Positions 22,867 to 58,755 of a stretch of 64,000 bases of DNA are shown piece by piece. Made by a program: the position numbers and the translations under genes. The notes below the pieces were generated by a model. That model was not told the origin of the DNA. It did no database searches and saw only the letters and a program-made list of their open reading frames with translations. The stretch's first letter is position 1. Each line of letters begins with the position of its first letter. This DNA is from an uncultured SAR116 cluster alpha proteobacterium (GTDB taxonomy: Bacteria > Pseudomonadota > Alphaproteobacteria > Puniceispirillales > Marisalimonadaceae): positions 1-64,000 of the forward strand of contig CACJQK010000003.1 in the NCBI GenBank assembly GCA_902595515.1, in the 5' to 3' direction.

Positions 22867-23580
22867 ATGAATAATAAACAAATTGTTCTCATTACAGGCG
22901 CTGGAAGTGGCATTGGAGCTGAGACAGCAATAGTACTAGCAAAACAAAATTACCATACAATTATTACTGGAAAATCTATTTCAAGTTTAGAAAAAACTGA
23001 AAAAAAAATTGTTAAAAATGGTGGTACATGTACTGTAGTCAAGCTCGATATGAACGATTTTATTGGTATTGACAAATTAGGGTTGGAAATATTTAAAAGG
23101 TGGAAAAAATTAGATATATTAATTTCAAATGCTGCGATCCTTGGCACTTTAGGTCCTATACACCATCAAAATCATGATGAATTCATTAAAGTACTAAACG
23201 TCAATTTAATTAGCAATCATAGACTAATTAGATCTGTAGAACCACTTTTAAAGAATAGTCCCCAACCAAAAGCTTCTTTCCTGTCATCAACAGTGGCTAA
23301 TGAGGCAAGACCTTTTTGGGGTGCTTATGCTATATCTAAAGCATCACTTCAACATATGGTTAAAATTTGGTCAATGGAAAACCAAAATAATAATTTGTCT
23401 ATTTCAATAATAAACCCTGGAAAAACGAACACAAAAATGAGGAAACAAGCCATGCCTGGTGAGAATGTTGACAATCTGCAAACTCCAAGAGAAGTTGCAG
23501 AAAAAATAAAAAAAATTATTTCTTCTAACAAGATTTACAAAGGCGAAGTAATTGATTTGAATTTAGTTGATTTCGATTAA
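22867..23580 (+). CDS. SDR-family NAD(P)-dependent oxidoreductase
   Basis: Classical short-chain dehydrogenase of 237 aa: cofactor motif 'TGAGSGIGAETA', 'SNAAILG' in place of the usual NNAG, Ser in 'FLSSTVANEARPFWG' and Tyr/Lys in 'AYAISKASLQ'. It resembles the YciK-like SDRs that follow purF in many alphaproteobacteria. The substrate is unknown. It starts 5 nt after the purF stop, so it is probably co-transcribed. Its 3' end overlaps the stop of the converging flagellar-operon tail gene by 4 nt. Confidence 0.85.
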   Translation: MNNKQIVLITGAGSGIGAETAIVLAKQNYHTIITGKSISSLEKTEKKIVKNGGTCTVVKLDMNDFIGIDKLGLEIFKRWKKLDILISNAAILGTLGPIHHQNHDEFIKVLNVNLISNHRLIRSVEPLLKNSPQPKASFLSSTVANEARPFWGAYAISKASLQHMVKIWSMENQNNNLSISIINPGKTNTKMRKQAMPGENVDNLQTPREVAEKIKKIISSNKIYKGEVIDLNLVDFD

Positions 23581-24284
23581 TCTTCTATTATCGCTGGCTC
23601 TAAATAAGAGAAATCAAAATCAATTTTTTCGTCAAATTTTCTAGCAATTTCTTGAGCCTCTTTATCATTTCTAGCACAAAAACTCAAAATTAATCTATAA
23701 TTATTTAGCCTGTAAAAAAATCGTAATGAATCTATTTGACTACTTCCAACATACCAAGATTTTAATATCCAACCTATAAAAAATAACCATGGTGAAATCA
23801 TAAAAAGCATAAAATAAAATACCATGGTAATACCAAAGAAAGTCCATAACCTATTTTGTAACATCCATAGGGGTGGTGCAATACTTGCAAGAATTGAATG
23901 ACTTGTATTAAGTAATGCAGCATTATTTCCGGGTTTTTTGAAAACTTCAAATAAAAAATACAAGTCGTCCCTTTGGAAATAATCTTTTAAATTAATATTT
24001 TTAAGTTCAGGTATTTTTTCAGCAGTAATATCTTCACATATCACACCTAAAGATCCATGAACAAAAGTGTTAAAAAAAACACCTTCTCTGAATAAAGTAA
24101 TTACTTTTTTTTCTTTTATTTCAGATAACTCCTTAGATAGTTCTTCATAACTTTTGTTTACCATTTCTCCATTAAGGGCTATAATAACATCTCCTTCTTT
24201 AAGTTTCATTATGTATGCATTTGAAGATGTTCTTATTGATTTAATCTGGAGGAATGATTTTTCAGTTACAATTTCTTCACTCAT
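23577..24284 (-). CDS. Uncharacterised protein: PDZ-like N-terminus plus membrane hairpin
   Basis: Not recognised as a named family. The first ~70 residues have a PDZ-like pattern ('MKLKEGDVIIALNGEMVNKSYEELSKEL', ending in a strand 'KKVITLFREG'). A linker follows, then two closely spaced hydrophobic segments (about residues 130-170, 'RLWTFFGITMVFYFMLFMISPWLFFIGWILKSWY'). A polar tail has 'RFFYRLNNYRLILSFCARNDKEAQEIARKFD'. The C-terminal half is vaguely reminiscent of the DUF2628 membrane family; this is a weak impression. It is the last gene of the minus-strand flagellar run, 28 nt after the coiled-coil gene, so a flagellar or membrane-associated role is inferred from context only. Confidence 0.7.
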   Translation of the reverse strand: MSEEIVTEKSFLQIKSIRTSSNAYIMKLKEGDVIIALNGEMVNKSYEELSKELSEIKEKKVITLFREGVFFNTFVHGSLGVICEDITAEKIPELKNINLKDYFQRDDLYFLFEVFKKPGNNAALLNTSHSILASIAPPLWMLQNRLWTFFGITMVFYFMLFMISPWLFFIGWILKSWYVGSSQIDSLRFFYRLNNYRLILSFCARNDKEAQEIARKFDEKIDFDFSYLEPAIIED

Positions 24285-24312
24285 TTGATCAAACTCATTA
24301 TATATGTTTTAG

Positions 24313-25026
24313 TTATGGGTATTTAATCCTACTTGTTTTATCAGCAATTTTATTCAAAACATTATTATTTTGTTTTAACAGCTTTGAAATTTGCTGTGCT
24401 TGTATTGCTTGATTTGCCACAATTTTTTTATATATGGCTTTATTACTTATTTGTTGAATAGCTTTTGATATGGATTTGTTATTTGATTTATTAAGTCTTT
24501 GTATATCTGAACTAATTTTTTTATTATTATCTATGCTTGCTTGAGTATTTTTGTTCAACTGATTTACAAGAGTATTTGTGATTAACTGTAATTCGGCAAC
24601 TGTATTTTCGTTAGATGTTTGCATTCTCTTTTCTATCTTATTGAGAGTAACAACCAATTTTTTATTAACTTCTAGTAAATCTCCCTGTTTTTTAATAGCA
24701 CTATCTAAATTTTTTAATGAAGCATTAACTCCATCAACATTTTCTGCAAAAACTACTAAGGCTTCCCTGCTAGTTTCTGTCATGTTAGTCAATTTATCAG
24801 AGGATTGCATGAATAAATATGCACTAACAGTTATAACTACTAAACCTGATATAATTGATGATAAAAATACGATTGTAGTGTATTTATGAATTTGTTTCAC
24901 CTTTGCCTCCAATTTTTCATGCGCTTTTTTAACTTTATTATATTCTGAAGTTACATCAGTTGCTGCATCTGCTGCGTCTAAAGCTAATTTTATGCTTTCT
25001 TGAACAGCTTCCATTTTAGTATCCAT
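24313..25026 (-). CDS. Uncharacterised single-pass coiled-coil protein
   Basis: The 237-aa protein has a short cytosolic helical N-terminus with heptad character ('VKKAHEKLEAKVKQI') and one membrane helix at about residues 52-73 ('IVFLSSIISGLVVITVSAYLFM'). Its long, probably periplasmic tail is rich in Asn, Lys, Gln and Ile and predicted by eye to be a continuous coiled coil. The overall shape recalls a chemoreceptor without signalling domains, or a tether, but no HAMP or known domain is visible. AGGA precedes the ATG. It lies at the tail of the flhB-containing transcript, so a flagellar accessory role is possible but unproven. Confidence 0.72.
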   Translation of the reverse strand: MDTKMEAVQESIKLALDAADAATDVTSEYNKVKKAHEKLEAKVKQIHKYTTIVFLSSIISGLVVITVSAYLFMQSSDKLTNMTETSREALVVFAENVDGVNASLKNLDSAIKKQGDLLEVNKKLVVTLNKIEKRMQTSNENTVAELQLITNTLVNQLNKNTQASIDNNKKISSDIQRLNKSNNKSISKAIQQISNKAIYKKIVANQAIQAQQISKLLKQNNNVLNKIADKTSRIKYP

Positions 25027-25068
25027 TTTATTTATCCTGTAATTTTCAGCTAAAAAAATATAAAATTA

Positions 25069-25257
25069 TCAATCTTTCTCTTTACGATATGCACATTCCA
25101 TACCAGTTGTACTAAATACTTCTAATGATGGTATAAATTTAGATATAAAACCAAATCTTTTGCATCCCCAAGGCCTTTGTTTTCTATGAGTAATGAAAAA
25201 ATAGTCACATCCACGACAAGTGATTCTTTTATTATCATTTTTAATATTCTTTATCAT
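25069..25257 (-). CDS. Small four-cysteine protein of the flagellar cluster
   Basis: The 62-aa protein has the pattern C-x2-C ('ITCRGCDYFFITH'), then 'RPWGCKRFGFISKFIPSLEVFSTTGMECAYR', giving four Cys that could hold a zinc ion. The pattern resembles short proteins often found near flagellar genes in other proteobacteria and commonly mislabelled 'uracil-DNA glycosylase'; that recollection is unverified. Its ATG lies 3 nt after the stop of the preceding 77-aa gene, so it is translated from the same transcript as flhB. Function unknown. Confidence 0.68.
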   Translation of the reverse strand: MIKNIKNDNKRITCRGCDYFFITHRKQRPWGCKRFGFISKFIPSLEVFSTTGMECAYRKEKD

Positions 25258-25260
25258 AAC

Positions 25261-25494
25261 TCAAACTTTATTTTTTTTATTATTATTTTTAAATTCTATT
25301 AATCTATATATTAATTGAGCAATCTTAAATCTAAAAGCACCTAAAACTGCTGTAAAACCAAAAAACCAATATAACGAAGCATTAAAAAAATCACCTTCTT
25401 CACGAAGGGAACTTGCCTCAAAATGACATAACAGTGCAGACCAAATAAACATTGCAGTAATAATAATTTGCCCAAATGTTTTTCTTTTTTTCAC
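25261..25494 (-). CDS. Small hydrophobic protein downstream of flhB
   Basis: A 77-aa product with two likely membrane helices (about residues 8-26 'GQIIITAMFIWSALLCHF' and 38-60 'NASLYWFFGFTAVLGAFRFKIAQ') and a basic tail ('KNNNKKNKV'). No family recognised. It lies 14 nt after flhB and 3 nt before the four-Cys gene, on the same strand, so it is read as part of the flagellar transcript. Good spacing and a tight fit argue it is real. Confidence 0.6.
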   Translation of the reverse strand: MKKRKTFGQIIITAMFIWSALLCHFEASSLREEGDFFNASLYWFFGFTAVLGAFRFKIAQLIYRLIEFKNNNKKNKV

Positions 25495-25508: not shown

Positions 25509-26654
25509 TTATTTAATTGTTTTTCCGTATTCATCAAAGCTCATATTTTTAGGTATTTCAAACTCAGGATAATCAGTTTCCTCTCCTCTTTCAATTTTAA
25601 AAATATAAGCTAATACGGAAGCAATAGCTGGATAGAGATTTTCAGAAATTTCCTTTCCTATTTCTCCTGTAAAATAAAGAGCTCTAGAAAGTAAAGGACT
25701 TTGAAAAACTGTAACTTTATTTTCATCAGCTAATTTTATGATTTTTTCTGCTATCATTCCTCTTCCCATAGCTAAGATTATTGGAGCACCTTCTGATCCA
25801 ACTTCATACTTAATTGCAACTGCAAAATGTGTTGGGTTAGTGATTACGGCTGACGCATCTTTTACATTATCAAGCGCAGCAGATTGACTAGCAGCTCTAT
25901 TGGCAATTTCATTTTGTAATCTTCTAATTTTTTGTTTAACTTCAGGTGATCCATCCGTATCTTTATGCTCATCTTTTACTTCTTTGATTGTCATTTTTAA
26001 TTTTTCTAAATGTTGGTATTTCTGCCAAATAAAATCAAAAATTGCTATAAAACCTAAAACTATTAATAGCGCAATTGTAAGTTGAGGAAAATTGTAAAGT
26101 AGATTTGATAGAGCAGAATATAAATTACGTTCGGATAAATTAATTATATCTTTCATATTAATATATATTACAAAAAATGTGATTCCCCCTAATAAGCCAA
26201 CTTTAAATAAAGACTTAATTAGTTCGAATAGACCTTTAGAAGAAAAAATTCTTTTTAAACCTGATAATAAATTAATTCTGTTTGATTTAAATTGAAAAGC
26301 TTTTGGAGCAAAATTTATACCTCCAACAGCCATTTGTGTAATTAAAATAATTAATATTAAGGGAATACCAACAATTAAAGTTATGTTAATTACATATTTT
26401 AACAATTTATTGATGCCATAGGCAGGTGATATATTCGTTATGTAATCGAGATCAAATAAGAACAAAGTTTTCCAAATTGCTAAAAAATCTCTAGCAAAAA
26501 AAGGTATTGAAGACAGAACCATTAAACCCATTATTAATGATGTAAAAACAAACATTTCTTTAGATGATAAAACCTGACCATCCTCGGCCGCTTTATCTAA
26601 TTTTCTTTGAGATGGTTCTTCGGTTTTATCTTGTGAATTGTCTTCTTCTGCCAT
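25509..26654 (-). CDS. flhB: Flagellar export apparatus protein FlhB
   Basis: Export-gate component and substrate-specificity switch of the flagellar type III secretion system. It has the N-terminal motif 'DKTEEPSQRKLDKAAEDGQV', four membrane helices, and the cytoplasmic domain with the autocleavage site 'NPTH' (about residue 271, in 'AVITNPTHFAVAI'). I start at the ATG at 26654 (381 aa), which has GAAGGAAG upstream; the track's 14 extra residues overlap the end of fliR. It follows fliR immediately in the transcript. Confidence 0.95.
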   Translation of the reverse strand: MAEEDNSQDKTEEPSQRKLDKAAEDGQVLSSKEMFVFTSLIMGLMVLSSIPFFARDFLAIWKTLFLFDLDYITNISPAYGINKLLKYVINITLIVGIPLILIILITQMAVGGINFAPKAFQFKSNRINLLSGLKRIFSSKGLFELIKSLFKVGLLGGITFFVIYINMKDIINLSERNLYSALSNLLYNFPQLTIALLIVLGFIAIFDFIWQKYQHLEKLKMTIKEVKDEHKDTDGSPEVKQKIRRLQNEIANRAASQSAALDNVKDASAVITNPTHFAVAIKYEVGSEGAPIILAMGRGMIAEKIIKLADENKVTVFQSPLLSRALYFTGEIGKEISENLYPAIASVLAYIFKIERGEETDYPEFEIPKNMSFDEYGKTIK

Positions 26655-26655
26655 T

Positions 26656-27471
26656 TTATGGTCTTCCTTCTTTATAAGAATGAAGAACTTCGTCAATCAA
26701 ATTAATTGCCGTAGCCGTCAAATCAGAAAATGCATTTGAAATTGGCCCAACCCCTAAATACAAAAAAATAAAAACACTAATTAAGGCAATTGGAAAGCCA
26801 AAAGAAAAAAGATTTAGTGATGGGGCAGACCTGGTAATTATACCTATCGAACACTGTATTAATAATAAACCACCTACAATTGGTAAACTTATCAAAGCTG
26901 CAAGGTAAAACATATCTCCAACGGTATTTACAGCAACATTACTTACTTCAGAAAAATTAAAAATTAAGCCAATTGGCAAGTATACATAACTTTCTATAAG
27001 TAATTTTAGTAAAAACAAATGACCGTCTAATGATAAGAAACAAGATATAAGAAATAATGTTAAAACTGTACTTAAAACAAGTGTTTGCCCTCCTGATTGG
27101 GGGTCAATCATGCTTGACATTGATAGACCTGCTGTAGATGCTATTTTCTCACCTGCAACTGCCGCTGCTGAAAAAAGTATATTTAAAATTAATCCTACTG
27201 AAAGTCCGACACCTATTTCAGATAGTATAAGTATAAATAAATTGAAACCTTGCATGTTTTGAATCTCTGGTACTTTAATAACAGGAAATAGAAATGCAGT
27301 TAAACTTATGCTTGCAATAATTCTTACCTGTAAAGGTATTCCTCCTAATGAAAAAAAAGGCGCACTAATTAAAAATGAAGAAATACGTAAAGATGCCACA
27401 AAAAATATTACCATATATTGGTATAAATTAAATAAATTAACTCCCGGTAAAGCAAACTCTATCCCATTCAT
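26656..27471 (-). CDS. fliR: Flagellar export apparatus protein FliR
   Basis: Integral membrane subunit of the FliPQR export-gate core. The 271-aa protein is almost wholly hydrophobic, with about six helices and the family features 'RISSFLISAPFFSLGGIPLQVRI' and 'GEKIASTAGLSMSSMIDPQSGGQ'. Position in fliO-fliP-fliQ-fliR-flhB confirms the name. Its stop is 1 nt before the flhB ATG, so translation is coupled. Confidence 0.94.
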   Translation of the reverse strand: MNGIEFALPGVNLFNLYQYMVIFFVASLRISSFLISAPFFSLGGIPLQVRIIASISLTAFLFPVIKVPEIQNMQGFNLFILILSEIGVGLSVGLILNILFSAAAVAGEKIASTAGLSMSSMIDPQSGGQTLVLSTVLTLFLISCFLSLDGHLFLLKLLIESYVYLPIGLIFNFSEVSNVAVNTVGDMFYLAALISLPIVGGLLLIQCSIGIITRSAPSLNLFSFGFPIALISVFIFLYLGVGPISNAFSDLTATAINLIDEVLHSYKEGRP

Positions 27472-30445: not shown

Positions 30446-31045
30446 CTATTGTAAAATAAACGCAGTAAAATATACATCTTCTATACCTGGAAATTCATCA
30501 AGTGACTCTAATTTTTTATTTAGAACAACCATTAACCTCTCAGACAATTTTTTCTTACCATCACTACCAGAAATATCTTCTTCAGTAAAATCACTTATAG
30601 TTGATAGTATTTCAGAACGTAATGCTAGTTGATGGGAATCAACTACCTCCATGACTTTTTCATCATACTGTGTGGATACACCTACACTAACTTGTAGAAA
30701 TTTTCTGCTTCCTTTTAAATTAGTTGTAAAGTCTCCTGGAAATTCAAAATAAGTAGTTTCATAACTATCAACTTCTGGGATAGCTTTAACATTCTTTTTT
30801 ATTATGCCATCTTCACCTTCTTCTTGACCTTCTTTATCTTCAACATCCTCTGTTTTTTTCTTTTCAGCTTCTTTCCCTTCTATTATTTGATTAACTTCGG
30901 CTGAAGGGTCAGGTTCAGGTTCACCACCAAACATAAAATAACCAATACCTAGACCAACAGCAATTAATAAAAAGCCGACTACTACAAAAATAATTATTTT
31001 TAACAAGTTACTTTTTTTTGGTTCTTCTTCAACTTCTTCTGCCAT
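30446..31045 (-). CDS. fliL: Flagellar basal body-associated protein FliL
   Basis: Single-pass inner-membrane protein associated with the stators. A short acidic N-terminus with 'EEPKKSNLLK' leads into a helix at about residues 14-35 ('IIIFVVVGFLLIAVGLGIGYFMF'). A long acidic linker (residues ~40-80, Glu/Asp/Lys-rich) precedes a periplasmic domain with 'GSRKFLQVSVGVSTQYDEKVMEVVDSHQLALRSEILSTIS'. At 199 aa it is longer than the gammaproteobacterial form because of the linker. It lies directly upstream of fliM. Confidence 0.92.
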   Translation of the reverse strand: MAEEVEEEPKKSNLLKIIIFVVVGFLLIAVGLGIGYFMFGGEPEPDPSAEVNQIIEGKEAEKKKTEDVEDKEGQEEGEDGIIKKNVKAIPEVDSYETTYFEFPGDFTTNLKGSRKFLQVSVGVSTQYDEKVMEVVDSHQLALRSEILSTISDFTEEDISGSDGKKKLSERLMVVLNKKLESLDEFPGIEDVYFTAFILQ

Positions 31046-39787: not shown

Positions 39788-40930
39788 ATGAATGTTGTAG
39801 ATAAATTAACAAGCCCATTTGACCAAAATAAATCTACATTAGACAATCTTAATAAAATGATTGATGGTGAAAGTCCTGAAACTAAGTCAATGAAAAATTT
39901 AATTGCAATGGTTTCTCAAACAGACAGCACCGCATTAATCTTAGGTGAAACTGGTACTGGCAAGGACATTGTGGCTCAAGCTATTCACAAATGTTCAAAT
40001 AAAAAAGGACCCTTTATAACTGTTAATTGTGCTGCAATTCCGTCTGAATTACTAGAGTCAGAACTATTTGGACATGAAAAAGGTTCATTTACAGGTGCAG
40101 ATAAACAGAGAAAAGGAAGATTCGAACAATCTAGTGGCGGGTCTCTTTTTCTTGACGAAATTGGGGATATGCCATTACCTCTTCAGGCTAAACTTTTAAG
40201 AGCTATTGAAAGTAAAACTATACAAAGAGTTGGTGGTGCACAAGATATTAAAATAGATTTAAGATTAATTTGTGCAACACATAGAAATCTTGAAAAAAAA
40301 GTTGAAAGTGGTGAATTTAGAGCAGATTTATTCTTCAGAATAAATGTCCTACCTATAAATGTTCCCTCTTTAGCTGAAAGAAGAACAGATATACCTAGTC
40401 TCCAAAAAACACTATTAAATAATCTAAAAGTTGATGAGACACAAAAACCAATTTTTACACCAGGTGCTATAACAGCACTTTGTAAACATAATTGGCCAGG
40501 CAATGTACGTGAGTTAAAAAATGTTATTGAAAGAGCTTGTATAATTTTTCCAGGTAAAGAGATTACAAGCACTAACGTTTTCGAAAATTTATTAAGATTG
40601 AAGGTTCCAACAATTGCCGAAGAACAAGAAGCACTTTGGGAAATGACTTCTGATCTAAGTGGAATAAGCAACCTTGAAGAAAATGAAGCTACAACAAACC
40701 TAGAAGATTACTTACCACACCCAAAGAATTATAAAAACTGGTTTTCTTTTTATGACGAAATAGATTTAAGGAGACATCTTCAAGATGTAGAAATTGTACT
40801 TATAGAAGAAGCTCTCGAAAAAACTAATAATAAGGTAGCACTTGCAGCAGATAAATTAAAACTTCGAAGAACTACCTTAATAGAAAAAATGAAAAAATAT
40901 TCAATAAATGTAAATCAAAATATTAATTAA
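39788..40930 (+). CDS. Sigma54-dependent flagellar activator (FleQ/FlrA-like, no receiver)
   Basis: A 380-aa enhancer-binding protein with a short 30-residue N-terminus instead of a receiver domain. The AAA+ domain has Walker A 'GETGTGKDIVAQAIHK' (about residue 54), the loop 'GHEKGSFTGADKQRKG' (Ser in place of the first Ala of GAFTGA), Walker B 'GSLFLDEIGDMP' and 'HNWPGNVRELKNVIERA'. A C-terminal Fis-type HTH ends it ('NKVALAADKLKLRRTTLIEKMKKY'). It is divergent from the FlbD-like gene and probably supplies the DNA-binding function that protein lacks. Its 3' end overlaps the converging flagellin gene by 8 nt. Confidence 0.87.
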   Translation: MNVVDKLTSPFDQNKSTLDNLNKMIDGESPETKSMKNLIAMVSQTDSTALILGETGTGKDIVAQAIHKCSNKKGPFITVNCAAIPSELLESELFGHEKGSFTGADKQRKGRFEQSSGGSLFLDEIGDMPLPLQAKLLRAIESKTIQRVGGAQDIKIDLRLICATHRNLEKKVESGEFRADLFFRINVLPINVPSLAERRTDIPSLQKTLLNNLKVDETQKPIFTPGAITALCKHNWPGNVRELKNVIERACIIFPGKEITSTNVFENLLRLKVPTIAEEQEALWEMTSDLSGISNLEENEATTNLEDYLPHPKNYKNWFSFYDEIDLRRHLQDVEIVLIEEALEKTNNKVALAADKLKLRRTTLIEKMKKYSINVNQNIN

Positions 40931-42917
40931 TTAACCTCAAAAAAACTTCACCACTCGCGTTAGCTTGAGCAAGCATGGAAGAAGCAGCTTTAGACATAAT
41001 TTGAGCTTTTGTTAGCCTAGCTGTTTCTAGAGCAAAATCAGCATCTTCTATTTTAGATAATCTTAAGGAAGAATTATTCTTAGCGTCAATTAAATAACTT
41101 AATCTATGATCGATTGCATTTTCACTTGCCCCAAATTTTGCTCTTGTATTAGCTATTGTATCAATTGCAGTATCAATCTTAGTCAAAGCTGACGTGGCAT
41201 TTGAAGAATTTGATACTGAAACTATAGATCCCGGAGTTGATGCGCTGCTGGATGCTTGAGCTTGAAACCCAAGTTCGCCAACATCATCACCTGATATTTT
41301 TATAACATCTCCAGCAGTATGAGTAAGAAGTATTTGTCCCTTAAATGTCACTGAGCTACCTACAGAAATTGTCGCTCCGGTTGCGTCAGTATGACCATCA
41401 ATAAAAACACCAGCTGTTCCTGCATGTGCTATTACAATATCAGCTCCACTCGCGCTTGCAAGTTGAACTTCTCCACTTGAGTTAACAGAAGCAACAATAT
41501 CTCCAATAGAAGCATTATTAATAGCTGCAATAGTCTGAGTTCCGTTAGTTACACTAGAGAAATTTATTGCATTTCCATTTATACTTATATTAGAAGACGC
41601 CGATGAAGCTTCTGAATAATTCAAGGTTAACGTTACTAAATTATCTCCTGTAGCAGCAACATTTGTTGATGATGAGACAGCATTAATTGCAATAGCTTTT
41701 GACGCAGCTGATGCGCTATCTGATGCTCCAATTGCAACATCATTTATTTTAATATCATGAGATGCTGTAAGAGCATTCGTTGATACTAAATCTGATCTAA
41801 TAATGGTACTTGAGTCAACTTCATTAAAACCAAATCTTGCTAGATCATCAATGTTTCCACTGTTGGATGCGTATCCATTGGCTTTTGTCATGGCTTCAAT
41901 TTTAACAAATGTACCATCAACATTTTCTAACTTAATGTACCCCAAATAAGTGCCTGCCGTGAAACCCGCATCAGTTGGTGCATTGCCACCAATAACAATG
42001 TCATTCCCAGTAGTATTTGATAATGTAATTGTATTATCAGAATTTAATGTGGCTGTAACACCGCCAGCTTCTTGATTAATTTCAGTTACTAAGTTTTCTA
42101 AACTTGTTTGAATTGATATTACATTAGTATTAATTGTAAAACTATTGCTCATAGAAAGAGAGTTTTTTGCAGCTGATGTAAGTTTATTAAAACCAGTTGC
42201 AGTAGCACCGTGGGTATTCGAATTAGCATTAATAGCAGTAACCAGTGCGGCTGCTGTATTGTTTCCTGATGATAAATTATCAGTTAAGTTTGCTGCTAAA
42301 GCGTTTTGTGAATTAATTTTGATATCACTTGCTGCAAGATTACTACTATTGTAAGTAAATCCTGTTACTCGTCCACTGGTAAACTCTTTTACTCCAGATG
42401 ATCCAGACAAACCTAAAGCTGTACTATCAGATTTAACTAAACTAATAGAAATATTATCATCCTTATTCTCTCCGAGTAAAAAATTTACCTTGTCAACAGA
42501 TCCATCCAATAATTTAATGGTATTAAAGTTAATCAATTTTGTAAGTGCGTCTATTTCTGTCAAGTAGGAATCTATTTCAACCTGTAGTGTGTTTCTATCA
42601 GCTGTTGTTAAAGTTGAACTGCCACCTTGAACAGCTAATTCTCTTATTCGAGCGAGTAAATTATTTATTGAACTTAGACCACTATCAGCTGTTTGAGTAA
42701 GTATTTTTCCTTCAGCACCATTCGAAATTGCTTCACCTAAGGATAAAACTTGAGCATTTAACCTTGAAATAGGGCCTAAAGATGCCGGATCATCAGATGC
42801 ACGATTAATTCTTTTTCCAGAAGACAACCTCTCAGTAGTCTCTGTAATCTCTTTAATTTGATTAGTCATATTTCTTTGAATAAATTGAGAAGTAGTCAAA
42901 TTACCAATGTTAAGCAT
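40923..42917 (-). CDS. Flagellin with Flagellin_IN-type inserts (664 aa)
   Basis: Filament protein. The conserved N-terminal D0/D1 region (residues ~1-150, 'ERLSSGKRINRASDDPASLG', 'INNLLARIRELAVQGGSSTLT') and C-terminal D1/D0 ('SKIEDADFALETARLTKAQIMSKAASSMLAQANASGEV') frame a variable middle of about 400 residues. That middle contains at least three Flagellin_IN-like units ('DIKINSQNALAANL...AINANS', 'DIKINDVAIGAS...AINAVS', 'NISINGNAINFSS...AINNASIGDI'). Unlike the other two flagellins it lacks the 'GTDxxGN' modules. It ends in 'EVFLRLIN' rather than 'LLQ'. GGAGG precedes the ATG, and a sigma28-like promoter lies upstream. Confidence 0.93.
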   Translation of the reverse strand: MLNIGNLTTSQFIQRNMTNQIKEITETTERLSSGKRINRASDDPASLGPISRLNAQVLSLGEAISNGAEGKILTQTADSGLSSINNLLARIRELAVQGGSSTLTTADRNTLQVEIDSYLTEIDALTKLINFNTIKLLDGSVDKVNFLLGENKDDNISISLVKSDSTALGLSGSSGVKEFTSGRVTGFTYNSSNLAASDIKINSQNALAANLTDNLSSGNNTAAALVTAINANSNTHGATATGFNKLTSAAKNSLSMSNSFTINTNVISIQTSLENLVTEINQEAGGVTATLNSDNTITLSNTTGNDIVIGGNAPTDAGFTAGTYLGYIKLENVDGTFVKIEAMTKANGYASNSGNIDDLARFGFNEVDSSTIIRSDLVSTNALTASHDIKINDVAIGASDSASAASKAIAINAVSSSTNVAATGDNLVTLTLNYSEASSASSNISINGNAINFSSVTNGTQTIAAINNASIGDIVASVNSSGEVQLASASGADIVIAHAGTAGVFIDGHTDATGATISVGSSVTFKGQILLTHTAGDVIKISGDDVGELGFQAQASSSASTPGSIVSVSNSSNATSALTKIDTAIDTIANTRAKFGASENAIDHRLSYLIDAKNNSSLRLSKIEDADFALETARLTKAQIMSKAASSMLAQANASGEVFLRLIN

Positions 42918-44212: not shown

Positions 44213-44245
44213 GTGTTTCCCTACGAAATTAATTTGGAGATTGAT

Positions 44246-46477
44246 ATGCCAACAGTTAATTCTAATACTGCTTCACAGTTTGCGCTTAATAAAATGGCTG
44301 CAACAGAGCGTGATATGACTACGGCGATGGAAAGATTATCGTCAGGCAAACGTATTAATCACGCAGGTGATGACGCAGCGGGTGCAGCTATTGCTGACAG
44401 AATGACTGCTCAGATTAAGGGATTAGAACAATCAGTAAGAAATGCAGCTGACGTTATTTCAATGGCACAAGTTACTGAAGGTGCCTTAGACGAATCTTCT
44501 TCAATAATTCAAAGAATAAGAGAATTAGCAATTCAATCAGCATCAGATGTTATGAACGCAGAAGAACGTTCTTATTTGGATGCAGAAGTTGTTCAAATGT
44601 TAGCAGAATTAGATCGCGTAACTAGAGATACTACTTTTAATGAAATAGCAGTTTTAGATGGATCATTTGCAGATAGACGTTTTCAGATTGGAACACATGA
44701 ACGTGAATTTGCTCAGTTATCAATATCATCAATGAGATTGGACAGCTTAGGAGCGTACAAGGCTAAATCCCAAGGAACAGAGACAACTGATGACGCTGGT
44801 GGCCCAGTTGATAATGATAATTTAGCATTGAATGCTTATGCAGTTGCTGATACCTCAGAAACCAATTTGGTACAGGCAGAATCATTTACTATTCATGGTA
44901 TTTTGGGAAGTTCATCAGTAACTGCTGCAGAAGGATCGAATGTTAGAGATATAGCAACGTCTGTTAACGCCGTCTTTGACTCTACTGGAGTTACAGCTAT
45001 AGCGTCTACACAACTTAAAATTCAGGCAAAGACTTTAGATGCTTTATTTAATGGTCAAACAAGTGTTTCTTTTAGCATTCAAGGAAAAAATACTACAGCA
45101 GTTACTATTGCTGCAAATGTTACTTTAAATAACAGTGAGGGAAGTTCTGTATTATCTGAACTTAGAGATTCTATTAATAATTACACAACTACTACAGGTG
45201 TAACAGCAACTTTATCCACAGATAAATCATCTATAATAATGGTTCAAAACGAAGGTTATGATATTAAACTAGGTGATGTAAATTTTGCTGGTGATACTGT
45301 TACTGACGGAGCTCAAAGAACTTTATTAGTAACAAGCTTAGATAATGATGAGGTTGTAGCTGGAGACGCAGTATCTTTAGGTGACACAAATGTTACTACA
45401 ACTGATCAAAATGGTATCGTTACAATTGATACCAGTGGTCAAACAACTATTGGAAGTCTGGCTGGTACAGCTTTCGAAGCAACAGGTCCTCGCAAACATG
45501 GAACAAGCACAACATCAGTTGTTGCGACCCAAAGAATTAGAACAACTGAGGAAGGTATCAATGGTACTGGGTCCATGGTTATTTTAAATTCTGCTAATGT
45601 TCTTAATTCTTTCATAACAATGACATCAAGTGCAGCTACTGCTGGTATCACTTATAAAATAGTGGGAACTGATGTACATGGTAATGCTCAAGAAGAAACA
45701 ATTCCTGCATTTACTGGGGCCGTAACTTTAGAATCTACTAAAGTTTTTGGAACAGTTACATCAGTAGTGCCATCTGGTCAACATGCAACGGCCGAAGTTA
45801 GTGTGGGTACTCGAAACACAATTGCAAAGCAATCAGCACTTGTCACTGTCACAAGTTCTACTGGTGATGAAAGTGCTTTAACATTTACAGTTACTGGTAA
45901 AGGAATGGATGGTACAGATCTAACAGAAATAATAACCGGCCCTGCTGTAGGTAAAACAGTAACAGGCAGAAGAATTTTTACAGAAATACACACAGTTGTT
46001 GTATCTGGTGATACAGCTCAATCAGTTGATATTGGATTAAAAGCAGCGGATTCTGTCATTATTACTGGACAACTTGAAATGTCCTCTAGCAACAGTTTTA
46101 CAGTTGTTGGCGAAGATGGAAAAGGATTATTTGAAGCATCACCTGGTGCAGCATCATTAGATAAATTATCTGGTGTGAATGTAAAGACAAGACAGTCATC
46201 AATTGACGCATTACGAGTATTAGACAGGTCGCTTGATAGAATTCATAAAGAAAGAGCAAAACTTGGAGCTCTTATGAGCAGAATGGAAAAAGCGATAGAT
46301 AATTTATCAAATGTAGCTCTAAACACTAATGCTTCTAGAGGTAGAATTGAAGATGCTGATTTTGCAAAAGAGTCTGCACGATTAACTAAGGCACAAATTT
46401 TACAACAATCTGCTATGGCCATGATAGCACAAGCAGGAAAAGCACAACAAAATGTGCTTCAATTATTACAAAATTAA
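44246..46477 (+). CDS. Flagellin with 'GTDxxGN' surface modules (743 aa)
   Basis: Filament protein. The N-terminal D0/D1 region (residues ~1-165, 'ERLSSGKRINHAGDDAAGAAIADRM', 'IIQRIRELAIQSASD') and C-terminal D1/D0 (from ~650, 'GRIEDADFAKESARLTKAQILQQSAMAMIAQAGKAQQNVLQLLQN') are strongly conserved. The ~480-residue insert contains Flagellin_IN-like parts and two tandem modules at about residues 455-610 ('YKIVGTDVHGNAQEETIPAF', 'FTVTGKGMDGTDLTEIITGP'). Related modules occur in the 1010-aa flagellin and FliD. The ATG at 44246 has GGAG upstream and lies downstream of the predicted sigma54 start. It converges on the 1010-aa flagellin gene. Confidence 0.93.
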   Translation: MPTVNSNTASQFALNKMAATERDMTTAMERLSSGKRINHAGDDAAGAAIADRMTAQIKGLEQSVRNAADVISMAQVTEGALDESSSIIQRIRELAIQSASDVMNAEERSYLDAEVVQMLAELDRVTRDTTFNEIAVLDGSFADRRFQIGTHEREFAQLSISSMRLDSLGAYKAKSQGTETTDDAGGPVDNDNLALNAYAVADTSETNLVQAESFTIHGILGSSSVTAAEGSNVRDIATSVNAVFDSTGVTAIASTQLKIQAKTLDALFNGQTSVSFSIQGKNTTAVTIAANVTLNNSEGSSVLSELRDSINNYTTTTGVTATLSTDKSSIIMVQNEGYDIKLGDVNFAGDTVTDGAQRTLLVTSLDNDEVVAGDAVSLGDTNVTTTDQNGIVTIDTSGQTTIGSLAGTAFEATGPRKHGTSTTSVVATQRIRTTEEGINGTGSMVILNSANVLNSFITMTSSAATAGITYKIVGTDVHGNAQEETIPAFTGAVTLESTKVFGTVTSVVPSGQHATAEVSVGTRNTIAKQSALVTVTSSTGDESALTFTVTGKGMDGTDLTEIITGPAVGKTVTGRRIFTEIHTVVVSGDTAQSVDIGLKAADSVIITGQLEMSSSNSFTVVGEDGKGLFEASPGAASLDKLSGVNVKTRQSSIDALRVLDRSLDRIHKERAKLGALMSRMEKAIDNLSNVALNTNASRGRIEDADFAKESARLTKAQILQQSAMAMIAQAGKAQQNVLQLLQN

Positions 46478-46544: not shown

Positions 46545-49500
46545 TTATCCTTGAAGAAGAGCTAGTAAGTTTTGCTTAGATGCATTTGCCTGAGCTAACA
46601 TTGATGTTGCAGCTTGTGACAAAATCTGAGCTTTCGTTAGATTAGATGTCTCCTGAGCAAAATCAGCATCCTGAATTCTAGATTGAGCGGCTTCTGTATT
46701 AACTTTCAAAGTTGTTAAGTTACTTATAGAAGCATCAATTCTATTTTCAATGGCACCAAAAGATGATCTAAACTTAGAAACTTGTTCTATTGCTTTATCG
46801 ATCAATTCTAGGGAAGCATTTGCTCCAGCCATAGTCTCAACTGACACTTTTGTACCAGAAACTTCAAACTCTGCACTTTGACCCTGAATACCTAACTTTT
46901 GAAGAATGGTTTCAGTTGAGCCAAATGTACCGTCAACACCAGTCCTCATATTTGTATTAGAGTCTGCAGCAACAGTTTCAACTTTTATTGGGGTACCTGT
47001 TGAGTTAGAAAGTTCTAATTTACCACGAGAAGTAAAATCATCTCCTATACTTGCAGTATATCCAATTTTAACAGCGTTTGATGTAAAATCAACATCAAGG
47101 TCAATTCTTGATACGGTTGCAAAAGCTTTAGTACCAGTAGAAGTACCACTCTGAGCAGGACCAACTATTACTTCGGTTAAACTATTACCAAGCATGTCAG
47201 TACCATGAACAGTGATTGTACCGTTGGCTGCTGTAGCATTGTTTCCTTCAGTTATTGTAATCAATGCACCACCAAGATTTAAACTTGTAGCACCGGAAAC
47301 TAATGTCAATGCAGTAGCAGCACCATGGTCACCAGAAGCGACTAATCCATCATCATCTGCTACCTTATTACCATGATTGGCTGCGTTAGTTCCACCAGCA
47401 TTAGTGTTACCAATTGTACTTGCATTGGTATCAGCTTGTGAGGCAGTTATAGAAGTAACAGACTCGTACACATTTTTACTTAAAGCTTCAAGTGTACCAC
47501 CAGCTCCTCTTACAACCTCAGTAACTGTATTACCAAAAACATCTGTACCTGTTATAGTATAGTTTTGGTCAGCTTGACCAGTTATTGAACCAATGTCAAA
47601 AGTAAGTGTAGAAGTTTGATCAGCTACGATTTCAGTGACAGTATTAAAAGTTTTAATACCATCAACAGTACCATTTTGTGTTGCACCAGCAATAACCTCA
47701 GTTTGGACGTTTCCATCCATATCTGTACCAGTAATAGTAAAGTTTATACCAGATGCATCACCGTTATTTAGTTCTGTAATCCTAACCATTCTACCTTTTG
47801 GTGTTGCGCTTGTAGCTGTTGAAGTTAATGTCATTGCAGATGTAGAAGCTGTCTGACCATCAGACAATTCATCAGTATCTGTTACCGCACCAGCAGAAGT
47901 AAAAACAACTTGGCTATTAAAGTTTGATGGGCTCAACAATGTCAAGCTTGTATCTGTGATTGCAGCACTTGCACGTAGTGAATCAACGTCTTCATCACTA
48001 CCTCCAATAATACCACTAACACTTACTGTTCCATTAACATCTTTAAATGCCCTTATGAAATCAGTATCACCCTGATGAGTTACTCTAATGTCCACACCAG
48101 ATGCACTTGATAATGTAACAGCACCATCAGAATTAGCTTTAGCTCTTATGTCACCTACTGATGCATTATTGATTGCAGTAACAACACCTTCAATGCCATT
48201 AGCAGATGTTACATTAATTGAAGTACTATTAACAAAAAATTCAGTTGTACCACCAGGCATTGCACCAAAATTTAAAGCTAGCTGAACTTCGTTACTTGCT
48301 TTAGCAGTTACGCCTGACTCAGTAGATACTGCATTAATAGCTTCAGCTATAGAAGAAGCTTGACCTGTAGCTGAGGCTCCAATTAATACATCGTTAATTT
48401 TGATCTCATTAGCAGATAGAGCTGTACCACTTACAGTATCAGTTTCTAATATTGAACCAGATGAGGTTTCATTAAAACCTAGAGCATTAACATCACCAAT
48501 AGTACCTAGACCATCAGTATATCCGTTGACTTCACTTCCTGCTTCAATTCTAACAGCGGAACCATCTAAGTTTTTAAGACTTACAAAACCTGTATATGTT
48601 CCTGCTGTGAAACCAACATCTGAGGCAGCTGAACCTGCAATAACAATAGCTTCACCAGTTTTATTTGACAATGTTATTGTATTATCAGCATTTAATGCAG
48701 CGTTTATACCAGACACAGCTTCGTTAATGTTGGCTGTCAATTTTGAATATGATGTGGCAAGAGCGACAGTGTCACCATTAATTGTAAAAGTAGCAGATTG
48801 TGAAAAAGTACCTTTAGCAGTTGATTGAACAGAATTAAAAGCGTCTGCTTCTGCACCATGTATACCAGTATTAGCGTTTATTGCATCTGCTAATAACTTA
48901 GCTTCATTAGCTCCAGAAGCTGAAGTGTCCTGATTAAAGTCAGTTGCAAAAGCATTAAACCCATTTATCTTTACATCGGCAGCTGCAATAGTATTAGCAG
49001 TGTTACTAAAATCTTTTTCATCAATTCTTTCACTTGTTAATGTAGTAACACCAATAGCACCACTTAACCCTAATGAAATTGAATCAGAACTTTCTAAATC
49101 TACTTTCAATGTATCAGAGGCATTAATACCGATTTGGAATTTAACATCTACATTACTACCATCTAGTAATTTAACATTATTAAAATGAGTGTTTGCAGAT
49201 ATTTTATCAATTTCTTCAATGAGTTGATCAACTTCAGATTGTATCATGCTTCTGTCAGAGTCACTTAAAGTGCTGTTTCCAGCTTGAACTGAAAGTTCTC
49301 TTACTCTCTGCAACATATTTTCAACTTCACCCAAAGCGCCTTCAGCTGTTTGTGTCATTGAAATTGCATCATATGAGTTTCTGATTGCGACACCAAGACT
49401 TTTAACTTGGGATTCCATTTTAGAAGCGATGGCTGAACCAGCAGCATCGTCAGCGGCAGAATTGATTCTGAAACCAGATGATAGTCTATTCATTGCATCA

Positions 49501-49577
49501 TCTAAATCTGCATTCAATTTAACCATATTTTTTTGGGCTGTTAAAGCACCAATGTTTGTATTTATACTATTAGCCAT
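46545..49577 (-). CDS. Giant flagellin with Flagellin_IN and 'GTDxxGN' modules (1010 aa)
   Basis: Filament protein twice the usual size. N-terminal D0/D1 ('MANSINTNIGALTAQKNMVKLNADL', 'AMNRLSSGFRINSAADDAAGSAI', 'VENMLQRVRELSVQAGNSTLS') and C-terminal D1/D0 ('SRIQDADFAQETSNLTKAQILSQAATSMLAQANASKQNLLALLQG') are canonical. The ~730-residue middle has Flagellin_IN-like repeats in its first half. Three modules lie at about residues 590-860 ('FTITGTDMDGNVQTEVIAG', 'YTITGTDVFGNTVTEVVRG', 'VHGTDMLGNSLTEVIVGP'). It is very rich in Thr, Ser and Ala, with higher GC than its neighbours. GGAG precedes the ATG. The antisense ORFs in the track are shadows. Confidence 0.94.
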   Translation of the reverse strand: MANSINTNIGALTAQKNMVKLNADLDDAMNRLSSGFRINSAADDAAGSAIASKMESQVKSLGVAIRNSYDAISMTQTAEGALGEVENMLQRVRELSVQAGNSTLSDSDRSMIQSEVDQLIEEIDKISANTHFNNVKLLDGSNVDVKFQIGINASDTLKVDLESSDSISLGLSGAIGVTTLTSERIDEKDFSNTANTIAAADVKINGFNAFATDFNQDTSASGANEAKLLADAINANTGIHGAEADAFNSVQSTAKGTFSQSATFTINGDTVALATSYSKLTANINEAVSGINAALNADNTITLSNKTGEAIVIAGSAASDVGFTAGTYTGFVSLKNLDGSAVRIEAGSEVNGYTDGLGTIGDVNALGFNETSSGSILETDTVSGTALSANEIKINDVLIGASATGQASSIAEAINAVSTESGVTAKASNEVQLALNFGAMPGGTTEFFVNSTSINVTSANGIEGVVTAINNASVGDIRAKANSDGAVTLSSASGVDIRVTHQGDTDFIRAFKDVNGTVSVSGIIGGSDEDVDSLRASAAITDTSLTLLSPSNFNSQVVFTSAGAVTDTDELSDGQTASTSAMTLTSTATSATPKGRMVRITELNNGDASGINFTITGTDMDGNVQTEVIAGATQNGTVDGIKTFNTVTEIVADQTSTLTFDIGSITGQADQNYTITGTDVFGNTVTEVVRGAGGTLEALSKNVYESVTSITASQADTNASTIGNTNAGGTNAANHGNKVADDDGLVASGDHGAATALTLVSGATSLNLGGALITITEGNNATAANGTITVHGTDMLGNSLTEVIVGPAQSGTSTGTKAFATVSRIDLDVDFTSNAVKIGYTASIGDDFTSRGKLELSNSTGTPIKVETVAADSNTNMRTGVDGTFGSTETILQKLGIQGQSAEFEVSGTKVSVETMAGANASLELIDKAIEQVSKFRSSFGAIENRIDASISNLTTLKVNTEAAQSRIQDADFAQETSNLTKAQILSQAATSMLAQANASKQNLLALLQG

Positions 49578-49661: not shown

Positions 49662-51920
49662 TTATTTTATATAAATATCATTTTTTGGTAAAGATGTTCT
49701 AAAATTTTGTGAGACTTTAATAAGTCCCTTTTCAAATTTTTTAATATAGTGCTGAGTATTTAATAACTGATTATTATCTTTTTTATTTTTTAGTATATTT
49801 TTTAATTTATCAATTTCCTTTTTATTTTTTCCCAATAATATACCTTTTTTTATATATTCTTCTTCTGATAAAGTTATCAAAGTTTCAAGATGTAATGATG
49901 TTAATACACTTCCAGCAACTCTTGAAGGGAAACTGTTTCCTAACAAAGTTAAGATTGGCAAACAACCATTAACTGCATCTATTGCTGTTGTATGGGCATT
50001 ATAATTAGACGTGTCTAAAAACAAATCTGCTAACTTGTGTCTTGCTAAATGTTGAGAAATTGAAACTCTTTTTGCAAAGATTATTCTCTCACTATCAACA
50101 CCGTTTATTTTAAATTTTTTCAAAAGTTTTGCTTTTAGAAGATCAGATTGGTGGGCTAACCATAAAATACTCTCTTTTACTTCTAATAAAATTCTACTCC
50201 AATGATCTAAATCCTGATCTGAAATCTTATAACCATTGTTAAAACAACAAAATATAAATTTATCTTCAGGGAGTTCTTCAATAGTTTTGTTTGTTTGAAA
50301 ATCGTAATTTTTACTATCGTCTGATATCAAATATGTGTCTGGCATATAAATTATTTTTTCTGAAAAAAATTGTTTTTTATTTTCAGGTATTACAATTTTA
50401 TCACCTACAATGTAGTCCATACAATCAGAGCCAAAAGTTCCTGGATAACCGAGATAATTAACTTGAATTGGAGCTAAGCGATTAACGAATAATGAGGGTC
50501 TTGAATATTGTGTATAACCCATCAAATCCACAGCAATCTCTATTTTGTAATCTCTCGATAATTTAATTATGTCTTTATCACTAAAATTTTTAACATTAAA
50601 AAATTGTTTTACATTTTCTTTTAAAAAATTTATTTCATCATTTTCTTGTTCATTTCCAAAAGAAAATATAAAAACTTCAAAATTATCTTTATCATATAAA
50701 CTGAATGCTTTTTTTAAAAGATGCATGACAGGGTGATTTTTAAAATCAGCAGAGAAGTACCCTATTTTAATTTTTCCATTGAAGCTATTTTGCTTAAAAC
50801 AATAACTGTTTTTAGCAGTTAAAATTTTATTACTGTAGTGTTTTGACGTTAGATATTGAACTTCATAATCATTTACTAGAGGCATCATAGTTAGTGGGGG
50901 TATAAATTCTCCTGGTTTTAAAGACGAAATTAACTTGATAGACTCTTTCTTAATATCTAAATTTTTAGATATTATATTTTCATTATTAATTCCTAAAATT
51001 GTTGATGATGCTTTTTTGAATTCGCCAGAATATATGTAAGCTTTCACTAAATTGAAATAAATATTCACAAAAGAATTATCTATACTTATTCCAAGCTTGT
51101 AAGTATCAATTGCTTTGTCGTATTTTTGCAAATTTAAATAACAATTTCCTAAATTATTATAAAATTCTGGGAATGACCCATCTATATGAATTGACTTTTT
51201 AGAAAAATCTATTGCATTTTCATATTGGCCTTGATTTGATAAAATGAGTGAAATATTATTATAGGCTCTTGAATTTTTTGGATCTAATTCAATAACTTTT
51301 TTAAACAATGAAATTGCTTTAATGTCATCACCCATTTTAGACAAACATAAACCTTTATTTAAGTAGGCAGGAACATAAGAAGGACTAATGTTTATGGATT
51401 TATCTAAGATATCTAATGCTTGGTCAAATTCACCACAACTTAAATACAAAAAACCTAAAGCATTCATAGCCCTAAAATTATTTGGTTTTGATTGAATGGC
51501 TGCCATATATAATATTTTTGATTTTTCAAAATCAAATAACTCTCTATAACTATTTCCAAGATTACATAGAGCTTCTTCATAAACAGGGTTAATTGTTATT
51601 GCTTTTTTTAATGGATCAAGAGCAGATTTAAATTCAGATATCTCATTTAACGAAGCACCTAAGTTATTATAATATTCTGCAACTTGAGGATTTAACTTAA
51701 TAGCTGTTTTAAAATAAGCCTGACCTTTTTCGTGTTTTTTTGTTTTTATATAAGAAACACCAAGTAAATTTAGTAAAAAAGTATTTTTTTTATTTTTTGT
51801 TAGTAATATTTCTCCATATTTAATAACTTTAGAAAATTCTCCCAAATTAAAATTATTCAGAATATCGTTAATAGTTTTTAAAAATAGATCCTTATCAATA
51901 TCACTGGACACAGCTTGCAT
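49662..51920 (-). CDS. TPR protein with GT41 (O-GlcNAc-transferase-like) domain
   Basis: The 752-aa protein has about eight tetratricopeptide repeats (residues ~20-300, e.g. 'AEYYNNLGASLNEISEFKSAL', 'PEFYNNLGNCYLNLQKYDKAI'). A GT41/SPINDLY-type glycosyltransferase follows ('KIKIGYFSADFKNHPVMHLLKKAFSLYD', 'EIAVDLMGYTQYSRPSLFVNRLAPIQVNYLGYPGT', 'DLFLDTSNYNAHTTAIDAVNGCLPILTLLG'). GT41 enzymes transfer sugars to Ser/Thr. Lying between a flagellin gene and fliD and behind a sigma54 site, it probably glycosylates filament proteins in the cytoplasm. The donor sugar is unknown. Confidence 0.88.
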   Translation of the reverse strand: MQAVSSDIDKDLFLKTINDILNNFNLGEFSKVIKYGEILLTKNKKNTFLLNLLGVSYIKTKKHEKGQAYFKTAIKLNPQVAEYYNNLGASLNEISEFKSALDPLKKAITINPVYEEALCNLGNSYRELFDFEKSKILYMAAIQSKPNNFRAMNALGFLYLSCGEFDQALDILDKSINISPSYVPAYLNKGLCLSKMGDDIKAISLFKKVIELDPKNSRAYNNISLILSNQGQYENAIDFSKKSIHIDGSFPEFYNNLGNCYLNLQKYDKAIDTYKLGISIDNSFVNIYFNLVKAYIYSGEFKKASSTILGINNENIISKNLDIKKESIKLISSLKPGEFIPPLTMMPLVNDYEVQYLTSKHYSNKILTAKNSYCFKQNSFNGKIKIGYFSADFKNHPVMHLLKKAFSLYDKDNFEVFIFSFGNEQENDEINFLKENVKQFFNVKNFSDKDIIKLSRDYKIEIAVDLMGYTQYSRPSLFVNRLAPIQVNYLGYPGTFGSDCMDYIVGDKIVIPENKKQFFSEKIIYMPDTYLISDDSKNYDFQTNKTIEELPEDKFIFCCFNNGYKISDQDLDHWSRILLEVKESILWLAHQSDLLKAKLLKKFKINGVDSERIIFAKRVSISQHLARHKLADLFLDTSNYNAHTTAIDAVNGCLPILTLLGNSFPSRVAGSVLTSLHLETLITLSEEEYIKKGILLGKNKKEIDKLKNILKNKKDNNQLLNTQHYIKKFEKGLIKVSQNFRTSLPKNDIYIK

Positions 51921-56603: not shown

Positions 56604-58736
56604 TTATGAAGAAATAATATCTTTAAAACATTTTTCCATGTTTCTTGCGTGTAGATCTTTATCGCATAGATCTGATTTAATAAGATTTAGTCTTAAACTT
56701 TTCTTAAATTCTTTTAAATCATTAATTTTCTTTGAAAAATCTACAGCACAGTTAACATATTCGTCCTCAGTAAAAGTAATTAATTTGTCTAGATTTAAAT
56801 TTTTTAAAATTGTGAAGCCTACCCTATTAGAATGTCTTTCTCCAATAAGAGTAATTACCGGAACACCCATCCATAACGCTTCAAAAGTTGTTGTTGTTCC
56901 ATGATATGGATATGTATCAAGAGCTATATCAATATCATTGTAAACTTCAAGATGTGATTTTTTTCCTTTTACCCAGCCTAATAATATTACTCTATCTTTA
57001 GAAATACCATACATGGAGAATTTTTTAGAATAAAAGTTTTTCATAAATTCTGAATTCAACTGCTTATTTTTTAAAATTAATTTTGAATCTGGAACCTTAA
57101 GTAAAATCTTTGACCACAAAGCTATTAATTCATCTGACAATTTTGATAAATTATTGAAACTTCCAAAAGTTATAAATTTATTTTTTAAGAAAGGAATATT
57201 TTTTTCAAGCTCAATATTTTGGTCACCTTCATAACATAAAAAAGGGGTATCTAATTTATATAATTTTTCTATATTAAAAATGTCATTTTTTTCTAAATCC
57301 GTAAATTTATCCACAATTCTATAATTGATTGTGTTAATTCCAGTAGTATTTGGGTAACCTAACCATGTAGCTTGTTTTTTTGTTGGTCTCATAGCAAAAA
57401 CTGACAATCTATTCTTGTCAGTATGACCTGATATATCAATTAATAAATCCAAATCATCATTTCTTATTATTTCAAATATTTGATCATCATGAAGGTGAGG
57501 AATATCTCTCCAGTAATTAGAGAGTTTTTTTATTCTTTCAGTTCTTTCATCATTTATCAGTGCATTATAATAACAAAAAATTTCAAATTCTTCTTTATTA
57601 ATTGATTTTAGGAGTGGTTCAAAAAAACAACTTACAGAATGATTGTGCAAGTCTCCTGATACAAAACCTATTTTCAACTTTTTGTTCGTTGCAATATTTA
57701 AATTAATTATTTCATTAAAGTTTTTTACTTTGTCTTTATACAGATTACTCAGATATTCACCATACTTTTTATGAAAGTAAAATATTTGATTATTAGAATA
57801 TGAATAACTATAGTTTGTAATCAACATTAAATTTGAAATTGCAACATTATCTTTTGGATTAATATTTAAAGATTTTTCAATCCATGATATTGCTTTATCA
57901 TGTTCTCCAACCTCTGATAAAATAGTTCCATAATTTAGAAATATATCTGAACTGTCTTGACCAATTGCTATTGCCTTTTCGAAAGTTAAAATAGCATTTT
58001 CATAGTCGCCTATATTTCTATATAAAATGCCGAAGTTATTATATGCATCAAGATTATTTTGATCTAACTCAATAGATTTTAAGAAATTTTCTTTTGCTTC
58101 TTCTATTAAAAATTTATCCCTATAGGTCACACCAATATTTTGATAAAAAATACTGTTTTTAGGAGATAATTCTATTGCCTTTGATAAGTATTTGATTGAT
58201 AGGTCAAAATTACCAATATTATTATATATAATACCTAAATTATTCAGTACAGCGGTAGATTTAGGGTTGACAATAATACTTTTAGTATAAAATTTTATAG
58301 CATTTTTTATGTCACCAATATTAGCATATGATAAACCAATACAACTTAAGGACTCAAAATCGTTTGGGTTAATGTTAATTGACTTAGTATAAAGTTGAAT
58401 AGCTTCTAAAATATTTCCCTTTTCGAAATTCGCCATTGCATTTACTTTTAAAACTATTGCGTCATTTGGGATTTCAGCTAAAAGTTTTTGTGCATCTTTT
58501 AAAGCTAAATCTATTTTTTTCTCTTGTAAGAAAACCTTTATTCTGTTTGTTTCTTCCAAAATATTTTTATTTAACTGTTTTTGAGTGTTTGATCCTTCTA
58601 ATAGATTTTTTAATTTTTCTCTAATTCTTATATTTTGAGGAAACTCCAATAATATATCTTCTAATAACTTTTTAGCTAATTTTGTTTCACCATTTTTAAC
58701 GTAGTTATCGACTTTTTTTAATTTAAAATCTATCAT
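56604..58736 (-). CDS. Second TPR protein with GT41 domain
   Basis: A 710-aa relative of the 752-aa protein in the same island. A helical N-terminus and about seven TPRs occupy residues ~65-310 ('FESLSCIGLSYANIGDIKNAIKFYTKSI', 'LDAYNNFGILYRNIGDYENAILTFEKAI'). The GT41 domain has 'KLKIGFVSGDLHNHSVSCFFEPLL', 'DLLIDISGHTDKNRLSVFAMRPTKKQATWLGYPNTTG' and 'IALDTYPYHGTTTTFEALWMGVPVITLIG'. The last motif is closer to the classical OGT donor-site sequence than the first protein's. The ATG at 58736 is used; the track's first codon is a TTG. It lies 20 nt after the small methyltransferase and appears to belong to the fliD transcript. Confidence 0.88.
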   Translation of the reverse strand: MIDFKLKKVDNYVKNGETKLAKKLLEDILLEFPQNIRIREKLKNLLEGSNTQKQLNKNILEETNRIKVFLQEKKIDLALKDAQKLLAEIPNDAIVLKVNAMANFEKGNILEAIQLYTKSININPNDFESLSCIGLSYANIGDIKNAIKFYTKSIIVNPKSTAVLNNLGIIYNNIGNFDLSIKYLSKAIELSPKNSIFYQNIGVTYRDKFLIEEAKENFLKSIELDQNNLDAYNNFGILYRNIGDYENAILTFEKAIAIGQDSSDIFLNYGTILSEVGEHDKAISWIEKSLNINPKDNVAISNLMLITNYSYSYSNNQIFYFHKKYGEYLSNLYKDKVKNFNEIINLNIATNKKLKIGFVSGDLHNHSVSCFFEPLLKSINKEEFEIFCYYNALINDERTERIKKLSNYWRDIPHLHDDQIFEIIRNDDLDLLIDISGHTDKNRLSVFAMRPTKKQATWLGYPNTTGINTINYRIVDKFTDLEKNDIFNIEKLYKLDTPFLCYEGDQNIELEKNIPFLKNKFITFGSFNNLSKLSDELIALWSKILLKVPDSKLILKNKQLNSEFMKNFYSKKFSMYGISKDRVILLGWVKGKKSHLEVYNDIDIALDTYPYHGTTTTFEALWMGVPVITLIGERHSNRVGFTILKNLNLDKLITFTEDEYVNCAVDFSKKINDLKEFKKSLRLNLIKSDLCDKDLHARNMEKCFKDIISS

Positions 58737-58755
58737 CAAAAAAATCTCATTTTTA

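Follow-up and report, generated by a model that had tools for sequence, protein, structure and literature searches.

Four genes behind flhB in a SAR116 flagellar cluster: a probable MotF relative and three candidate motor components

The four same-strand genes located 3' of flhB in an uncultured SAR116 (Puniceispirillales) bacterium probably form the tail of a fla3-type flagellar gene cluster and encode accessory motor parts of the inner membrane, with a relative of the stator protein MotF among them. The analyzed stretch of DNA, hereafter the window, comprises the first 64,000 nucleotides of contig C3 and carries the following features, listed with their predicted transmembrane (TM) helices:

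25509..26696, minus strand: flhB, the anchor of the module (Pfam Bac_export_2, 9.6e-101; TIGR00328)
25261..25494, minus strand: TM2, 77 aa, GTG start, 14 nt gap after flhB; two predicted TM helices
25069..25257, minus strand: Cys4, 62 aa, Cys at 14, 17, 32, and 55; 3 nt gap after TM2
24313..25026, minus strand: CC, 237 aa, one TM helix at about 51-69; 42 nt gap after Cys4
23577..24284, minus strand: PDZ, 235 aa; 28 nt gap after CC
30446..31045, minus strand: fliL, in the same flagellar gene cluster as the flhB module

The true start of flhB is likely the ATG at 26654, and relatives align from residue 13-15 on. The fliL gene was named without a family search of its own, from its position before fliM, the congruent gene order in relatives, and an annotated FliL in locus L236. 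At its stop codon, PDZ overlaps by 4 nt with a convergent gene for a short-chain dehydrogenase. In a comparison of congeners, the four genes showed dN values of 0.05-0.22 and dS values of 0.6-1.4, indicating purifying selection. These values, together with the same gene order in distant families, confirm that the four ORFs described in the first-pass annotation, with gaps of 3-42 nt, are real genes. Searches of the four proteins against Pfam and NCBIfam gave a weak PDZ match and nothing convincing for TM2, Cys4, and CC.

When loci were retrieved with CC as the query, all 77 uncut ones had the genes on one strand in the order flhB-TM2-Cys4-CC-PDZ; partial loci were cut by contig or locus ends, save one spurious weak match. 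The median intergenic distances from flhB through PDZ were -4, -4, -1, and +24 nt, and such short overlaps and gaps suggest co-translation. Of 61 relatives, 44 possessed FlhB, Cys4, and PDZ, and 15 lacked all three (two chance-level Cys4 scores being set aside in this count); the PDZ match alone was missing in G034, and PDZ sits on a 4.6-kb contig in G039. The module genes were thus mostly present or absent together with FlhB across these relatives. FlhB was detected in 183 genomes of a class sample of 289, and Cys4 combined with a good CC match occurred only in the nine whose FlhB was at least 44% identical to that of the window; the next best FlhB of the sample (37% identical) was not accompanied by the module. 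In 18 further flagellated alphaproteobacterial loci, the region after flhB carried cckA-like, fliD-like, or unrelated genes (named by eye) and yielded no distant relative of any of the four proteins. The co-occurrence with FlhB and the fixed synteny bear out the flagellar tie proposed earlier. The weak CC matches of G301 and G340 were dismissed as coiled coils that match by chance; weak PDZ matches across the class, where inspected, proved to be ordinary proteases, RseP among them.

Among 298 Rhodobacteraceae genomes searched (family membership assigned by protein similarity), 22 had CC matches, of which a small number were weak and not accompanied by the module; the full module was present in many Rhodobacteraceae loci. 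Cys4 was missing in L310-L313 and L317, and both TM2 and Cys4 were missing in L318. In L310, L312, and L313, the site between TM2 and CC from which Cys4 is missing harbors a gene on the opposite strand, related among these loci and encoding about 190-205 aa, which splits the module transcript. In one SAR116 genome (G031:C23, 10891-13970), FlhB and PDZ are both broken by frame changes, which reflect decay or an assembly error.

The FlhB tree comprised 65 rows, among them 29 FlhB proteins with a module, which without exception fell on one side of a 100/99 branch. This side spans SAR116, other marine alphaproteobacteria, and the fla3-type cluster of Rhodobacterales, with Rhodobacteraceae and SAR116 intermingled. 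The module FlhB proteins group with FlhB of Fla1 of R. sphaeroides, which is the fla3-type flagellum of Rhodobacterales, apart from native Rhodobacterales FlhB (Salipiger, Alloyangia, and Marinovum), which fall elsewhere in the tree. Since the module rows were picked for having the module, the tree shows a common lineage, not the genes in every member; their presence throughout the lineage is supported by the unbiased class sample. The module was found with this one FlhB lineage only, including R. sphaeroides and a plasmid-borne cluster of Octadecabacter. On plasmid pOA238_118 of Octadecabacter arcticus (Roseobacter), a complete flagellar cluster has the module genes at its end; a hypothetical small gene and rpoN come next, and motBA is convergent. 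The fla3-type cluster, for which RSP_0032-0083 of R. sphaeroides serves as reference, constitutes 8% of Rhodobacterales flagellar clusters and is horizontally spread (PMC12363192); this share is near the proportion obtained here, where a CC match was present in 19 of 263 good genomes. Whereas that cluster type was described in Rhodobacterales, it was also found here in SAR116 and other marine alphaproteobacteria, with a fuller module.

The CC protein of the window is very probably a MotF relative, i.e., a bitopic stator-activating protein, because the gene immediately following flhB in R. sphaeroides matches the CC profile and fits the published MotF. Genome G678, harboring locus L318, is taken to be R. 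sphaeroides 2.4.1, almost certainly. The CC profile gave an E-value of 2.4e-6 in this genome and 3.2e-11 on the ORF itself, which overlaps the flhB stop and, read from an internal Met, encodes 239 aa (24.8 kDa) with a TM helix from residue 54 and the C-terminal end NPIRYP. We assume that RSP_0067 is motF, an assumption backed by the agreement in size, TM helix, and position. Published work gives RSP_0066 as flhB and lists RSP_0067 as hypothetical and co-regulated (PMC9779115). R. sphaeroides MotF is a 24 kDa protein with a TM helix at 54-74 and a periplasmic C-terminus (PMC7277832), compared with 26.4 kDa and about 51-69 for CC of the window. It acts on the MotB plug with FliL, its known partner in stator activation, and is recruited through FlgT; rotation is impaired in its mutants, and MotB plug mutations suppress this defect (PMC7277832). 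The likeness comprises a significant profile match, a single TM helix near 51-54, a coiled-coil C-terminal part with the [ILVF]x[YF]P end, an flhB-linked cluster, and the presence of FlgT and FliL in both, whereas SAR116 has the additional TM2 and Cys4 between flhB and the MotF gene. CC and R. sphaeroides MotF share little sequence identity, their match being carried by the N-terminal and TM part. By analogy, the SAR116 protein would act as MotF does.

CC consists of an N-terminal segment, one TM helix, a coiled coil, and a conserved C-terminus, [ILVF]-x-[YF]-P, found in 103 of 106 distinct CC sequences. A lysine-rich segment precedes the TM helix and suggests an N-in orientation, with the N-terminal segment cytosolic and the coiled coil periplasmic. 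The motif LDAADAATDV, predicted to be cytosolic, is invariant in most module CC proteins and divergent in R. sphaeroides. CC of the window is 96% identical to that of the SAR116 isolate AG-915-B22, and the CC profile matched only generic coiled coils among PDB sequences. The C-terminal tetrapeptide (24313-24327 in the window) is kept even in R. sphaeroides and looks like a docking peptide. In the literature, MotF has been called Cereibacter-specific or Rhodobacteraceae-restricted. The MotF of Sinorhizobium/Agrobacterium, which is alike in name and stator role, is reported as a FliL paralogue in work cited in PMC9812332 and was treated as a probable name clash.

The PDZ protein can be confidently assigned a PDZ fold, based on a profile match to the DegQ PDZ domain (4e-7) and an AlphaFold2 model (pLDDT 89.1) for which Foldseek gave PDZ matches. 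It comprises a PDZ domain (about 10-75), a second beta segment (81-126), a TM hairpin (147-193), and a small C-terminal alpha/beta segment. Owing to the hairpin, both ends should lie on one side of the membrane, and positive residues after the hairpin suggest that this side is cytosolic. The fold is like that of DegQ, DegP, and RseP by profile and structure; unlike these, the module protein is predicted to have its PDZ domain in the cytosol, attached to a membrane hairpin. Compared with the PDZ proteases (DegP, RseP), only the PDZ part matched by sequence, and no protease domain was detected. The PDZ gene was always located directly after the MotF-type gene, including in R. sphaeroides (profile E-value of 2.2e-15 on the ORF), and this constant linkage makes a motor role likely. 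The earlier statement that the genes have no usual counterpart in flagellar operons does not hold, since the corresponding position in R. sphaeroides is occupied by motF and a PDZ homologue.

TM2, with two TM helices predicted by hydropathy, sits directly after flhB and is missing only from the most divergent loci. All four Cys of the Cys4 pattern (CxxC...C...C) are invariant in the alignments, and the protein is probably a metal-binding adaptor. Of 312 good genomes of the phylum, 54 have Cys4 relatives; in the loci examined, these were mostly away from flagellar genes, and some are near SUF and Rieske genes (by eye); therefore, the family is not flagellum-specific. The first-pass annotation had named homologues lying mostly in non-flagellated genomes or away from flhB as evidence against its reading; the wider Cys4 family does lie mostly away from flhB, but TM2, CC, and PDZ do not show such a distribution. 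The AlphaFold2 model of Cys4 (pLDDT 48) was set aside, and the Cys4 profile had no match among PDB sequences. The label of a Rossellomorea relative, uracil-DNA glycosylase, was rejected for this 62-aa protein with no Pfam/NCBIfam match. In another lineage, a Cys4 relative (L249, 6110-6385) lies between flagellin genes and fliE/fliF-like genes (by eye).

Of the 16 module genomes, 15 carry the FlgT_N domain (two with scores under the curated cut-off); the genome of the window has it as well (C3:87054-87302, E-value of 3.4e-11), and it was found in none of 20 flagellated module-less genomes. A motB homologue is convergent and lies 248-2820 nt beyond PDZ in 49 loci; in 48 loci whose flank was long enough, no motB was near PDZ. 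The plug domain is present in the MotB used as query. In the genome of the window, motAB was not located, and purF and a dehydrogenase gene occupy, in its genus, the place where motB sits in other loci. The CC-MotF relation, the FlgT co-occurrence, and the motB adjacency strengthen the stator option among those put forward earlier. FlgT_N was also found in one of six module-less controls, G057 (C3:836-1090 of that genome), which has no FlhB though rated 99% complete, pointing to an assembly gap or partial loss.

According to the proposed mechanism, the cytosolic segment and TM helix of CC would sit beside the stators, its periplasmic coiled coil would reach the H-ring (FlgT), and CC would, together with FliL, relieve the MotB plug, so that the stator units become active. 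The roles that we infer for the other proteins are that PDZ, whose cytosolic domain would be anchored by the membrane hairpin, probably serves to dock or position MotF or stator units and would act by gripping a cytosolic protein tail, and that TM2 and Cys4 probably help to place or fold the membrane parts of the module. With CC as a very probable MotF relative in a conserved unit, PDZ, TM2, and Cys4 are good candidates for undescribed motor parts. A more tentative and rather doubtful extension is that these three and MotF form a stator-docking collar at the inner membrane that is peculiar to this flagellum type, and that SAR116-related marine alphaproteobacteria were the source or a main reservoir of the horizontally spread fla3-type flagella.

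The permanent position of the module directly behind flhB, the frequent overlap of flhB and TM2 in module loci, and a C-terminal tail peculiar to this FlhB lineage, flhB of the window included, would all suit a service to the export apparatus, in which the module assists FlhB or gate assembly. This explanation is improbable in view of the rotation defect of R. sphaeroides MotF mutants with its MotB-plug suppression (PMC7277832) and the association with FlgT and motB, but may still hold for TM2 or Cys4. Placement of the flagellum at the pole, for which membrane-anchored PDZ and coiled-coil proteins would make a suitable scaffold, had also been suggested in the first-pass annotation. It became less likely because flhF-like and flhG-like genes are located elsewhere on the contig (C3:90313-92302); moreover, R. 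sphaeroides Fla1, with CC and PDZ, is subpolar (PMC7277832), and we consider polar placement highly improbable. Both explanations rank below a role in the motor.

Cys4, and perhaps TM2, might instead be generic small passengers in the operon with no motor function, as would fit the phylum-wide Cys4 relatives lying mostly away from flagellar genes and the loss of Cys4 or of both in the divergent loci L310-L313, L317, and L318. However, throughout SAR116 and in most of the remaining module loci, TM2 and Cys4 hold their position and are under purifying selection, which renders free-rider status unlikely, although less so than an export function. The probable MotF relatives are a constant part of a flagellum type in abundant ocean bacteria, beyond Cereibacter and Rhodobacteraceae; a PDZ membrane protein accompanies them every time, and two more nameless small proteins do so in most cases. 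PDZ, TM2, and Cys4 thus represent three testable candidates, and R. sphaeroides, with its PDZ homologue, is tractable.

Other flagellar genes were observed on the contig. Three flagellin-like ORFs of 664, 754, and 1010 aa (40923-42917, 44213-46477, and 46545-49577 in the window) are of unusual length and contain large inserts in their central part. Beside them are encoded long TPR proteins (49662-51920 and 56604-58739) whose C-terminal half resembles a glycosyltransferase, suggesting possible flagellin glycosylation (by eye). Two very large hook-type proteins were also recognized by eye on the same contig, namely an FlgK-like protein of 2242 aa (L326, 2097-8825; C3:66097-72825) and an FlgE-like protein of 1741 aa (L326, 12616-17841; C3:76616-81841).
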